A DNA stretch of 64,000 nt, taken from the NCBI RefSeq assembly GCF_023656545.1, contig NZ_JAMOKF010000004.1, positions 1 through 64,000 on the forward strand, read 5' to 3'. Under the pieces are notes generated by a model. The model worked only from the letters and a program-made list of their open reading frames with translations. It was not told the DNA's origin and did no database searches. Shown here piece after piece: positions 60,520-64,000 of this stretch. Both the position numbers and the translations under genes were made by a program. The DNA is from Micromonospora phytophila (lineage in GTDB: Bacteria; Actinomycetota; Actinomycetes; Mycobacteriales; Micromonosporaceae). Numbering within the stretch: the stretch's first letter is position 1; the number at the start of each line of letters is the position of its first letter.

Positions 60520-61235
60520 GACCGTCCGATCGGCCATGGCCGCCCAGACAGTCCTGGAAGGCCGATACCTCGGCGGACGCCCGCCATTCGGCTACAGGCT
60601 CCGTGATCTCGGCCCTCACCCCAACCCGGCGAAGGCGGCCGACGGCAAACATCTTCGCGGGCTCACCCCGGACGCCCAGAGCGCCCCCGTCGTCCGCCGG
60701 ATCTTCCACGAGTTTCTCGCCGGCTACGGGCTTTTCGCCATCGCCGAAGGACTCACCGCCAACCATGTGCCCTGCCCCTCGGCACACGACCGAGCGCGTA
60801 ATCCCCACCGCAGCGGCATCGCCTGGTCCAAGAGCGCCGTACGCGTCATCCTCACCAACCCCCGCTACACCGGCCGGCAGGTCTGGAACAAACAACGCAC
60901 CGACGAAGTCCTCCTCGACGTCGATGACGTAGCACTGGGCCACACAGGGGTCATGCGCTGGAACACCCGCGACAAGTGGGTGGTCTCCAAGGAGATCACC
61001 CACCCGCCCCTGATCGATGACGAGACCTTCGAGCAAGCCCAGGCACTGCTAACCCGTCGCGCGCGAGCCGCCGACCTTCAGGGACGCCGCCGCCGCACCC
61101 GCAACCCCTACGTCTTCCGCGGAATGATCTACTGCGCCGCCTGCCAGCGCCGCATGCAAGGCCAGTACAACCACGGCGCTGCCTACTACCGCTGCCGCTT
61201 CCCTCAGGAATACGCCCTCGCCAAGTGGTCAAAAG
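60520..61235 (+). pseudogene. Large serine recombinase, missing its catalytic domain
   Basis: The plus frame reads VTVRSAMAAQTVLEGRYLGG, RPPFGYRLRDL, VRRIFHEFLAGYGLFAIAEG, GIAWSKSAVRVILTNPRYTG, DKWVVSKEITHPPLIDDETF, then the zinc-ribbon RGMIYCAACQRRMQGQYNHG and YYRCRFP. This is the recombinase plus zinc-ribbon part of actinomycete/phage serine integrases. The N-terminal resolvase domain with the nucleophilic Ser is absent, since MerR ends at 60450. The coiled-coil C-terminus is also cut at about 61235, just before the next gene. It cannot recombine DNA. Confidence 0.8.
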
Positions 61236-61320: not shown

Positions 61321-64000
61321 ATGTCCCGACCCGCCCTCGCCTCTCTTCCCGACCCGGCTCTGGCGGCGGATGATGTGCCGCTCAGTGACTCGCTAGTCGC
61401 CGAACTCGCCAAGCGAGGTTGGCGGGTCGATGACGATCCGCTGCGGGCGCGCTGGTTGCGGCTTGCGGCGTGTCACTCCACTTTCCTTTACGAGATTGGC
61501 CGGGCGCCGATCTCGGCCGCCGCACTGGCGGCACTGGGCAAGGTGGGCGCCACCCATCTGGCGCTCGCGGTGGCCGACCTGGTCGTGGAGCGCACTCGTC
61601 CGGACAAGGTCAGCAGGCAGAACCGGGTCATCGCGCACATGCCCGGGCGGGTCGCCCAGCGGGTCGCTGGCAATCTGGCTGTCGTCGAGTCGATGAACCT
61701 GGGCAAGGGCGAGGAGCCGAACCGGCGGAGCACGTCGCGCCTGGCTGAGGACGTCATGCACCAGGTCCTCGGTGTGGTGGTGCTCCTCGGCGGCTACACC
61801 ATCGTCAAGCGGCTGGTGGCAGACGTCTACGAGCAGGCACTCCAGCAGGTGCTCATGGACGGCATCAACTGGTGGGGTGAGCTGACCCGCTCCGTGCCGG
61901 TTCAGCAGCTCACGGTTGAGGACCATCAGGAGGGCCCGGATCACCATCGGACCTTCATTGTGGAGATCGTCGACGACCGGGGCCGGCGCGGGCGCGGCGA
62001 GTTCTCGAAACGAACCGGCGCGAAGGATCTGGCGGTCCAGGACTACCTGCGCAACGCGGGCCTCTACGGTGAGATCATCGCGCGCGCCGGCGGCCGCTCG
62101 ATCTCGCGGCTCGCCGAGGAGCCCCGTCACTACCCACCGGGTCAGGGCCCGTGGAACCGCACGGTCGCCGAACTGGCCATCACGCTCCGGATCACTCCGG
62201 AACGCCGGGCCTACCTGCAGCAAGCACTCACTCACAAGTCATGGGCTTACGAGAACCAGTCGTTGGTCCGCCAGGCCCGGCAGATCGACTACGAACTGCT
62301 GGCCAACCACGGGTCCTACGTCATCAGGGCGGTGTCGGCCGCAGAGTTCACGCGCAACCTGCTGGGCCGCACGCTCAAGCCCGGACCGGAGGATGGCGCG
62401 ATCCATTCGTTGCCGGAGCGCTGCTACGTCGACATGTTCGACCGGCTCGTGCCGGAATCGGCCGTGCTCCGCAGCCGCGGCGAAACCGAGTGTAAGCCCC
62501 GCATGAAGGCAGAAGCCTTTCAGGCGATTGCCTCGGTCGCCTGGCGCTTCGGCGAAGCCGGCCTGCCGGAAACGCTGCGAGGTTGGATACTGCGGGAGAC
62601 CCTTGCTCAGGGGCTCGACGAGTTGAGCCGGCTGCAGCGTCTCTGTGCCACCTTCGGTGGCGAGGCCTTCTCCACCTATACCTCCGCCGGCCCGGCGCAC
62701 GATTCCCGGTTCACGGCCACCCTTACCGTCCGTATCGGCGTGCTCGAACTCGTTCGGACCGGCCCTCCGACGCCCGGGAAGAAAGAGACCACCCGGCTGG
62801 CCGCAGAGCGGTTGTACCGACTTTTCACCCTAGGACCGGACCTCCGGGCCGCCGTCGGGACAGAGCGGGAGGAGAGCATGCTGCTCCTGCTGTGCCTGGC
62901 TCGGCGTCTGCCGGTGCTGCGCGGCCGTGATCTCCGGCGCTGTATGGAGGAAGGGGTTCTGGGGCTGGGTCTGCTGGCCGCCTCGGGTGACGAGCTCAAC
63001 GGCTTCCTCGCGTGGGCGGAGGAGGTTGACTCGCTGACCGGCCCGCTGGACGACGAGCTCTTCGACCATCTGGTGACCGTCTACGGCAACGCTGTGAAGG
63101 CACGCTCGCGGCCAAAGCTGGAGCAGGCGTTGCGGGTTCTGGCGGCCTGGGTGCGCAATCTCGACCCGGAAGGCACCGTCGTGGTTCGGAAGGCACCCCA
63201 ATGGCACCTCCTTCTGGCGGTAGCCGGCGCACTACGGGCTGGCGCCGCCCGGGAACAAAAGACGGTAGACGAAATCGTCGGATCCTGGCCGGTGCAAGGT
63301 CCCGAGTCCGCGTCGCTCTTCTTCGCGGTCGACGCCGCCGCCATCGGTGAACTGCTCCGGGAGTTCCCTGACACGTCCGCTGGAACGGTCCGGTTCCGAC
63401 GGCTTCCCGACGGAGTCCGGGTTGAATGCGCGAGCACGGTCCCGGGCGCGGCCGACCGCGTCCGCAGTCTGGTCGACCTGCTCGCCGAGATGGCGCCCGG
63501 CCTTGGGGTCTTCGCCGGAGCGGACACGCAGACGCTGAGCGCCACCTACGCCCCCGACCCTGCCGACCGGTCCTTCACGGCGGCCGGCAGGCTCGCATTT
63601 CACGGCTCCCGGGACCGTGACGGCGTCGAGATCTTGGCGAACGTCCTGCACCGGCTGAAAAACGAGTTGATCGGCATGGAGGACGTCGCGCAGAAGGCGG
63701 CGGTGGCCAGCGACCGGGTAACGCGCTTTCACCGACTCGCCGATGCCGCCCGACACCACGAGGCCGCCGTCCGCCTGGCCGACCACCTGGACCACACCAA
63801 CCAAGCGCTGGCGGATGCCGACAAAGAGACGGTTCAGTTGGGCCGCTGGATCGATGAGTACTGCGCCGCCAAGGTTCTGGAGATCAGAGAGATGGCGAAC
63901 GTACGTCTGATCGCGCCCGCCAAGTCCGGCCATTGTGAGGTCGCCCTCTCGCCGTCGCTGCTGCGGGGAGTTCTGGACAACCTCATCAAGAACGCTGTCG
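61321..64000 (+). CDS. Multidomain protein: (RNase III-like + dsRBD) x2 fused to histidine-kinase-like DHp/GHKL ATPase (3' partial)
   Basis: The frame is open from ATG 61321 to the right edge, 893 codons so far. Start 61321 has GGAGG 11 bases upstream; ATG 61294 is in frame. Residues 45-180 read as an RNase III fold (ACHSTFLYE, LNLGKGEE, VVLLGGYTIVKRLV), with the LEFLGD-type catalytic box changed to LAALGK (70-74). Residues 181-248 are a dsRBD (GPDHHRTFIVEI, SKR at 229-231). Residues 287-430 are a second RNase III-like unit (ALTHKSWAYEN 302-312; catalytic Glu325 kept, Asp changed to Asn329). Residues 433-503 are a second dsRBD (GPAHDSRFTATL, GKK at 486-488). After a helical middle, His777 in LHRLKNEL resembles a DHp H-box, and DNLIKNAV (886-893) an ATPase N-box. 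It may be a dsRNA-sensing kinase or ATPase; the assignment is by eye. Confidence 0.7.
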   Translation, partial: MSRPALASLPDPALAADDVPLSDSLVAELAKRGWRVDDDPLRARWLRLAACHSTFLYEIGRAPISAAALAALGKVGATHLALAVADLVVERTRPDKVSRQNRVIAHMPGRVAQRVAGNLAVVESMNLGKGEEPNRRSTSRLAEDVMHQVLGVVVLLGGYTIVKRLVADVYEQALQQVLMDGINWWGELTRSVPVQQLTVEDHQEGPDHHRTFIVEIVDDRGRRGRGEFSKRTGAKDLAVQDYLRNAGLYGEIIARAGGRSISRLAEEPRHYPPGQGPWNRTVAELAITLRITPERRAYLQQALTHKSWAYENQSLVRQARQIDYELLANHGSYVIRAVSAAEFTRNLLGRTLKPGPEDGAIHSLPERCYVDMFDRLVPESAVLRSRGETECKPRMKAEAFQAIASVAWRFGEAGLPETLRGWILRETLAQGLDELSRLQRLCATFGGEAFSTYTSAGPAHDSRFTATLTVRIGVLELVRTGPPTPGKKETTRLAAERLYRLFTLGPDLRAAVGTEREESMLLLLCLARRLPVLRGRDLRRCMEEGVLGLGLLAASGDELNGFLAWAEEVDSLTGPLDDELFDHLVTVYGNAVKARSRPKLEQALRVLAAWVRNLDPEGTVVVRKAPQWHLLLAVAGALRAGAAREQKTVDEIVGSWPVQGPESASLFFAVDAAAIGELLREFPDTSAGTVRFRRLPDGVRVECASTVPGAADRVRSLVDLLAEMAPGLGVFAGADTQTLSATYAPDPADRSFTAAGRLAFHGSRDRDGVEILANVLHRLKNELIGMEDVAQKAAVASDRVTRFHRLADAARHHEAAVRLADHLDHTNQALADADKETVQLGRWIDEYCAAKVLEIREMANVRLIAPAKSGHCEVALSPSLLRGVLDNLIKNAV

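Follow-up and report, generated by a model that had tools for sequence, protein, structure and literature searches.

We analysed a 64,000-nt stretch of Micromonospora phytophila DNA (contig NZ_JAMOKF010000004.1, positions 1 to 64,000 of the forward strand; hereafter the window), near the end of which starts a gene for a sensor kinase that joins two RNase III-like domains and two double-stranded RNA-binding domains (dsRBDs) to a histidine kinase, a receiver and a HEPN-like domain. From its sequence and predicted structure, we propose that the protein is a cytosolic two-component switch that senses double-stranded RNA (dsRNA) and releases an RNase, probably against phages, a reading whose chances we put at about even; within it, we infer the ligand (dsRNA), the direction of the signal, the RNase activity and the phage trigger. 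An initial annotation, made from the sequence of the window without database searches, had suggested that an RNase III fold has become a dsRNA-binding sensor that signals by phosphorylation, and the predicted folds, the dsRBDs, the lost acids and the kinase-receiver part described below are consistent with that suggestion.

Gene and domain order

The window is the first part of an 82,750-base contig, and its positions are also contig positions. The gene runs as one uninterrupted frame from the ATG at 61321 to a stop codon at 65521-65523, with a product of 1,400 residues and with 1,523 bases beyond the window edge; a GGAGGA is found about 10 nt 5' of the ATG. The single frame that had been noted within the window is therefore open across all 1,400 codons, and no stop codon follows soon after position 64000. 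The encoded domains are, in order, as follows (positions above 64,000 are on the contig):

61321..64000, + strand: sensor-kinase gene, part in the window (stop at 65521-65523, 1,400 aa in total)
61387..61860, + strand: first RNase III-like domain (residues 23-180), without the key catalytic acids
61870..62055, + strand: first dsRBD (residues 184-245), helix-three strands-helix, GPDH loop at 205-208
62146..62610, + strand: second RNase III-like domain (residues 276-430), Ser332 and Gln401 at the catalytic Asp and Glu sites
62620..62826, + strand: second dsRBD (residues 434-502), GPAH loop at 457-460, GKK at 486-488
62827..63615, + strand: linker/transmission region, mostly helical (residues 503-765), lower model confidence
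63616..63936, + strand: dimerisation/phospho-acceptor region (DHp), His777 within LHRLKN, approximate boundaries
63955-64218 (63955..64000 in the window), + strand: HATPase_c (residues 879-966)
64348-64683, beyond the window, + strand: receiver (residues 1010-1121), Asp1014, Asp1015, Asp1058 and Lys1110
about 64696-65190, beyond the window, + strand: HEPN-like domain (residues ~1126-1290), RNVVGH at 1241-1246
about 65191-65520, beyond the window, + strand: small beta domain, following the HEPN-like domain

The ratio of nonsynonymous to synonymous substitutions (dN/dS; counting method, own script) was computed for one pair, this copy (genome G000) and its 85%-identical relative in G227. It is 0.29 overall and 0.17-0.50 by domain (0.17-0.27 in the RNase III-like domains and dsRBDs, 0.25-0.26 in the kinase, receiver and HEPN-like domains, and 0.50 in the helical region), so this pair is under purifying selection. 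An ordinary RNase III joined to other domains by a chance fusion of frames was ruled out on three counts: an open frame of 1,400 codons, a low dN/dS, and the recurrence of the same domain order in distant relatives. No Rfam family matched at the gathering thresholds in the 20 kb scanned.

The sensor half resembles two RNase III units

In this copy, Pfam places Ribonucleas_3_3 at residues 49-167 (E 4.5e-6) and dsrm at residues 436-496 (E 0.006), both under the curated cut-offs; among the 16 members of the family that were scanned (Pfam, E up to 1), all match both dsrm (best 2.4e-17) and Ribonucleas_3_3 (best 7.7e-12). A family profile matches M. tuberculosis RNase III (2a11; 4.5e-27) at positions 40-238, i.e., the first domain and its dsRBD, and E. 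coli RNase III (7r97; 7.1e-13) at positions 279-505, i.e., the second domain and its dsRBD, and it also matches many eukaryotic dsRBDs, including that of PKR (1qu6; E 2.9e-7). The second domain of the aligned members keeps the RNase III signature near ALTHxSWxYE. Of the 26 tree members, 19 have two of the GPxH loops that the initial annotation had seen in the dsRBDs of this copy (here at 205-208 and 457-460), and all 26 have at least one.

The AlphaFold model of the sensor (16 sequences; predicted local distance difference test, pLDDT, 78.9; predicted template-modelling score, pTM, 0.64) has helical RNase III folds at residues 23-180 and 276-430 and alpha-beta-beta-beta-alpha dsRBDs at 184-245 and 434-502. 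An RNase III domain (RIIID) followed by a dsRBD, the layout of an RNase III, is thus found twice in the protein by profile and by model. The profile comparison and structure prediction that had been suggested as a check bear out the two RNase III/dsRBD units, and the similarity read between residues 45 and 503 is present by profile.

In a structure search with the sensor model, chains of Drosha, Dicer and Dicer-like proteins take ranks 1-33 by Z and span both domains (e.g. Drosha 5b16: Z 22.5, 366 aligned, root-mean-square deviation (rmsd) 8.9; Dicer 7zpi: Z 20.9, 353 aligned, rmsd 3.8), and single bacterial RNase III chains reach Z 14.0 and lower. Foldseek likewise ranks Drosha at the top. 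Because Drosha and Dicer chains lead the matches across both domains, we predict intramolecular pairing of the two RNase III-like domains, as in these enzymes. We read the matches as an intramolecular pair of shared geometry, not as shared descent or function with Dicer, since long two-domain chains align more and the bacterial homodimers were compared as single chains. The hydrophobic peak of the protein falls within the first RNase III fold, and none of the seven members checked shows a convincing membrane segment.

Key catalytic acids of RNase III are lost

We tallied the residues at the catalytic positions, which we take to be E38, E41, D45, D114 and E117 in E. coli numbering, in 27 first and 28 second domains (pieces from L029 and L063 included, pieces shorter than 60 residues dropped), with four ordinary RNase III genes as controls. 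All five acids are kept in 4/4 controls. The Glu117 position has an acid in 0/27 first domains (where the register is uncertain by one column) and 0/28 second domains, 26 of the latter having Gln instead. At the Asp45 position, an acid is found in 2/27 first domains (L040 and L043) and 0/28 second domains (one gap). None of these domains combines an acid at D45 with one at E117, so by its catalytic acids none qualifies as an active RNase III, in line with the initial annotation, which had found the acidic boxes mostly substituted.

The structure list for the sensor model includes the A. aeolicus RNase III E110Q mutant with bound dsRNA, E110 being, we assume, the same position as the lost Glu. 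In S. aureus RNase III, the E135A mutation very strongly reduces cutting and D63A does so less, and both mutants are reported to match the wild type in RNA binding, with data not shown for D63A (PMC3386247, in excerpt). Because the S. aureus mutants are reported to bind RNA and the A. aeolicus mutant structure holds dsRNA, it is plausible by analogy that the sensor has lost cutting and retained RNA binding. Dicing activity of the sensor is unlikely because the key acids are lost.

Kinase, receiver and HEPN-like output domain

The HATPase_c domain (residues 879-966, E 2.3e-13 by Pfam) continues past position 64000, and the initial annotation had placed both the H-box (His777) and the N-box (886-893) correctly. 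This copy has the H-box His777, the N-box from 886 (DNLIKNAV, with Asn887), DDGPG from 919 and GSGMG from 945. Response_reg follows at residues 1010-1121 (E 5.5e-18, Pfam), and the receiver fold is clear in the predicted model of a relative (L031); the Asp, Asp, Asp and Lys of the receiver, here Asp1014, Asp1015, Asp1058 and Lys1110, are invariant in 10/10 relatives. The protein thus has the hallmarks of a two-component system on both sides, i.e., the H-box His, N-box and G-boxes of the kinase, and the acidic pair, phospho-acceptor Asp and Lys of the receiver. Among known anti-phage systems, PADLOC-DB 2023 gave only weak matches, both to the receiver region 1005-1097 (PDC-M60B 7.7e-5 and SduA 1.4e-4).

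After the receiver, the model of L031 shows a helical domain and then a beta domain. The helical domain carries an RNxxxH motif (RNVVGH at 1241-1246 in this copy) of the Rx4-6H type found in HEPN proteins, whose R, N and H are invariant in 15/15 aligned, otherwise divergent sequences (G340 and G127 lie outside the alignment). In the HEPN superfamily, which includes RNase L, PrrC and RloC, Rx4-6H contributes to the endoRNase site (PMC3710099, in excerpt). By Pfam, 3/15 members match HEPN_MAE_28990 and 1/15 matches HEPN_Swt1, all sub-threshold, and no DNA-binding family is among the Pfam matches of 10 members. We consider it fairly probable that the helical domain is a HEPN RNase.

Distribution and arrangements of the family

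Members of the family are rare, were found only in Actinomycetes, and come in fused, split and kinase-less forms. We searched residues 1-743 against 300 genomes of the same taxonomic family, 11 of which matched at E 1e-5 (own genome included); two of these matches are ordinary RNase III (G157 and G076), one is a broken copy (G215) and one a nuclease-like variant (G065). The sensor profile was found in 4/394 genomes of the class and 4/200 of the order, own genome included in each. Among plasmids, 7 records matched (4 Streptomyces and 3 Rhodococcus), and a genome scan resting on one short pattern yielded 16 loci of the family (sensor profile >180 bits) among 80 listed of 265 matches. Some relatives are named in plasmid records as 'double-stranded RNA binding motif domain-containing protein', 'ATP-binding protein' or 'response regulator'.

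Including this copy, 26 sensor-bearing members have an open frame, and 16 members with open frames bear the kinase. Five of the 16 are fused (G000, G227, G172, G016 and G087) and eleven are split (L018, L045, G081/L027, G019/L039, L040 (Streptomyces apricus), L041 (S. pseudovenezuelae), L042, L043, L044, G340 and G127). A look at the downstream genes, which had been proposed as a way to find a conserved effector or response regulator, did find one: the receiver-HEPN part is fused to the sensor kinase or encoded by the next gene downstream in 16/16 kinase-bearing members (G340 and G127 by coordinates). Conversely, receiver-HEPN was detected in 3 of the 394 class genomes (E 1e-35, own included) and in 2 plasmid records, all of which also have the sensor kinase. 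The fourth sensor-bearing genome of the class, G399, has the kinase-less form, with a sensor frame of the same length as that of L035.

Eight kinase-less members (L015, L016, L017, L019, L033, L034, L036 and L038) have a common N-terminal domain, some 110 residues long (NxWxG...PxH), for which no convincing Pfam relative was found in the eight scanned; in L035 the sensor frame is open and this domain lies outside it. In an unrooted tree, a branch sets apart each of the split, fused and kinase-less forms (support 99/98, 100/100 and a weaker 83/88, respectively), from which we conclude that these arrangements are inherited rather than random. The tree excludes L063 and L025 (broken frames), L029 (one dsRBD lost), L020 (a near-duplicate of L045, with the same lengths of open reading frames and nearly the same scores) and the plasmid hit H6.

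L029:7496-9433 (genome G065) is a relative of the sensor without one dsRBD and without the kinase, the end of which resembles a PD-(D/E)XK nuclease by eye (EAKSS...QLLDYARF) and has no Pfam match. The broken frames are at about 5597-8060 in L025 (genome G215) and about 9917-14617 in L063; with two members broken, some strains may be losing the sensor system.

Genomic neighborhood

Directly upstream of the gene is the remnant of a large serine recombinase (window 60680-61210) that has Recombinase and zinc-ribbon domains and lacks the Resolvase domain, which agrees with the broken recombinase described initially. We compared the neighbors in 27 loci all against all and examined the 45 widest clusters: the recombinase cluster is present in 5 loci (this one plus four others, by BLAST clustering; Pfam-checked in 2), a GmrSD_N-type cluster in 4 (checked in L022), a cluster that is transposase-like by eye in 5 and a MerR-like one in 3. 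Other than receiver-HEPN, no partner is conserved in most of the 27 loci among these clusters.

Defense genes found near members include BREX genes, a type III-like restriction pair and GmrSD enzymes, and recombinases are found near members as well. A PADLOC test compared 8/25 sensor loci (61/190 open frames) with 8/14 control regions of the same genomes (81/137 frames), one per genome, using greedy open frames and redundant models, without per-protein matches. The 61 proteins of the sensor neighborhoods matched 117 PADLOC families at 1e-15, and among the 25 listed of these are type I methyltransferase, DruE, DrmD, DrmA, BrxH and LmuA, as well as PD-T4-6 and mad6. The 81 control proteins matched 31 families, led by PD-T4-6 (presumably a protein kinase) and mad6; the 25 listed are PD-T4-6, mad2/3/6, C3a189 (kinase) and MkoA models. 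Because the models are redundant and there is no per-protein list, the evidence that the sensor genes sit in defense islands is moderate. Of the accessory, defense-rich setting that had been suggested, the nearby defense genes and recombinases stand, with the limit that control stretches match PADLOC families too.

Downstream and convergent with the sensor gene, a DruE-like helicase is encoded at about 67690-72612 of the contig (- strand; PADLOC DruE1 6.9e-185, MrfA zinc-binding domain), followed by a protein of about 1,100 aa without Pfam or PADLOC match that is beside the helicase also in G227 and G215; the two may form a Druantia III-like pair, one partner of which had gone unrecognised. 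A fixed operon with this helicase was ruled out, as a helicase of 1,642 aa accompanies the sensor in just three same-genus loci, G000, G227 and G215 (among the clusters listed). Between the sensor gene and the helicase is a gene for a 616-aa protein (contig about 65733-67580, - strand) matching HEC-07 (1.1e-11, residues 26-160), and no gene call falls there in G227 or G215.

Proposed mechanism and alternative explanations

In the proposed mechanism, the inactive tandem RNase III-like domains and the two dsRBDs would clamp dsRNA without cutting it. Binding would alter the dimeric helical/DHp region, the ATPase domain would phosphorylate His777, and the phosphate would pass from His777 to Asp1058 of the receiver. 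The phosphorylated receiver would then release or dimerise the HEPN-like domain, with RNA being cleaved and the cell stalling. The likely trigger would be phage-derived dsRNA and the outcome abortive-infection defense. The phosphorelay steps are argued for by the kept kinase and receiver residues, and the dsRNA-binding and RNase-release steps are ones that we infer.

Several observations weigh against this mechanism. Other catalytic acids are partly kept (D114 in 20/28 second and 5/27 first domains, E41 in 9/27 first domains, and E38 in 12/27 first and 5/28 second domains), for which reason the loss of cutting is a presumed one, and the first dsRBD of this copy lacks a net positive charge (K+R 10, D+E 11). 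For the output domain, HEPN_RiboL-PSP is matched by 4/15 members (best 0.0016, below Pfam thresholds), the HEPN-like part of this copy matches no Pfam family, hhalign against four HEPN proteins gives 45% probability over 22 columns (0.1% for the unrelated sensor profile), and the structure lists for the L031 receiver-HEPN model are filled by receiver matches and hence hold no fold evidence on HEPN. The kinase motifs are absent from 10 members, and no output domain was recognised in the kinase-less members (one whole protein and the N-terminal domain of 8 scanned). Phage records have no homologue at E 1e-5, and two IMG/VR scans resting on few short patterns confirmed none. The PADLOC matches of the control stretches count on the same side. 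A phage origin of the sensor gene was dropped in view of the phage-record and IMG/VR results.

The system could instead be a housekeeping-type RNA stress sensor that reads structured RNA of the host (precursors of rRNA, antisense duplexes, or RNase III failure) and tunes RNA decay or growth via the phosphorelay, with no role against phages. Bacterial RNase III substrates do include many host RNAs, and the mutant enzymes recovered mainly fragments of rRNA and tRNA operons (PMC3386247, in excerpt); the phage searches above, which confirmed no homologue, also agree with such a role. The sparse distribution in the class and the order counts against it, because one would expect wider conservation of a housekeeping sensor, as do the plasmid copies and the several loci near recombinases or restriction, BREX or Druantia-like genes, and we consider this explanation unlikely. 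A sensor that uses its RNase III shape as bait for a different ligand than dsRNA (RNA-DNA hybrids, a dsRNA-binding protein of a phage, or some phage factor acting on RNase III) would fit the catalytic loss, which leaves a decoy-like RNase III, and the low net charge of the first dsRBD of this copy. To this we give very little credence, as four RNase III and dsRBD domains are kept together, along with GPxH loops (two in 19/26, at least one in 26/26) that a pure decoy would not need.

On the output side, receiver-HEPN could be a protein-interaction or nucleic-acid-binding module, with the system regulating transcription or another effector, which is how the sub-threshold HEPN matches and the further beta domain could be understood. 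We find this improbable: the Arg, Asn and His of RNxxxH are invariant across 15/15 divergent sequences, which is the pattern of a catalytic site, Rx4-6H is tied to HEPN endoRNase activity (PMC3710099, in excerpt), and the Pfam matches of the 10 members hold no DNA-binding family.

Comparison with known systems

We found no described counterpart in the open-licence PMC literature (subscription papers and most preprints lie outside it), and the excerpted literature on HEPN, NTP-dependent conflict systems and BREX (PMC3710099 and PMC12839542 among these) does not mention such a protein. Because the search covered open-licence papers, we regard the novelty of the tandem-RNase III sensor kinase as provisional. 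If the proposed function is true, it would be a general dsRNA alarm for bacteria and would add the two-component phosphorelay to the triggers of immunity; as one gene or two adjacent genes, the system is directly testable.

Hybrid histidine kinases and response regulators usually have membrane or PAS sensors and DNA-binding outputs. The protein shares with hybrid kinases the DHp-HATPase-receiver order and the standard catalytic residues, and differs in having a cytosolic sensor that would bind RNA, and an output that is RNase-like. Schlafen RNase-histidine kinase proteins linked to BREX also combine an RNase and a minimal histidine kinase in one defense-linked protein; however, they have a winged helix-turn-helix (wHTH), and the excerpted text mentions no RNase III/dsRBD sensor or receiver-HEPN output (PMC12839542). 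In CBASS, CdnE03 and CdnE01 are bacterial immune enzymes triggered by structured phage RNA (cabRNA), a precedent for bacterial immunity set off by such RNA; there, however, the RNA is sensed by a positively charged surface on a cyclase whose product is a cyclic dinucleotide, with no RNase III-like receptor or phosphorelay (PMC10686824, in excerpt).

As in Dicer and Drosha, the predicted model has a single chain with two RNase III-like domains placed alike relative to each other and with a C-terminal dsRBD, a geometry that may equal that of the bacterial RNase III homodimer, as the proteins were compared as single chains. Unlike them, the sensor is bacterial, has lost key acids, has a dsRBD after each RIIID and is fused to a kinase, and no helicase or PAZ is among the 6 Pfam families listed for the full-length protein (E up to 1). 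Two RIIIDs in one chain are described as a trait of eukaryotic Drosha and Dicer only, all bacterial RNase III being placed in the one-RIIID class (PMC8708148, in excerpt), and a dead bacterial receptor version would, if true, be a separate route from enzyme to sensor.

RNase L contains a KEN domain of the HEPN superfamily (PMC3710099, in excerpt), and the proposed output would be an RNase of that superfamily, as in OAS-RNase L; as in PKR, a dsRNA sensor would drive a kinase. The only similarity seen to these proteins is in the dsRBD, and the sensor protein has a histidine-aspartate phosphorelay, not a Ser/Thr kinase or 2-5A. In the PKR and OAS-RNase L pathways, sensing of dsRNA leads to a kinase or an RNase. 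It is possible, at a likelihood that we set a little under even, that Actinomycetes have their own dsRNA immune pathway with a dead 'Dicer' as receptor, a His-Asp phosphorelay and a HEPN RNase as executioner, its sensor being reused in the kinase-less forms and joined once (L029) to a nuclease-like domain; such a pathway would be a functional analogue of PKR and OAS-RNase L.

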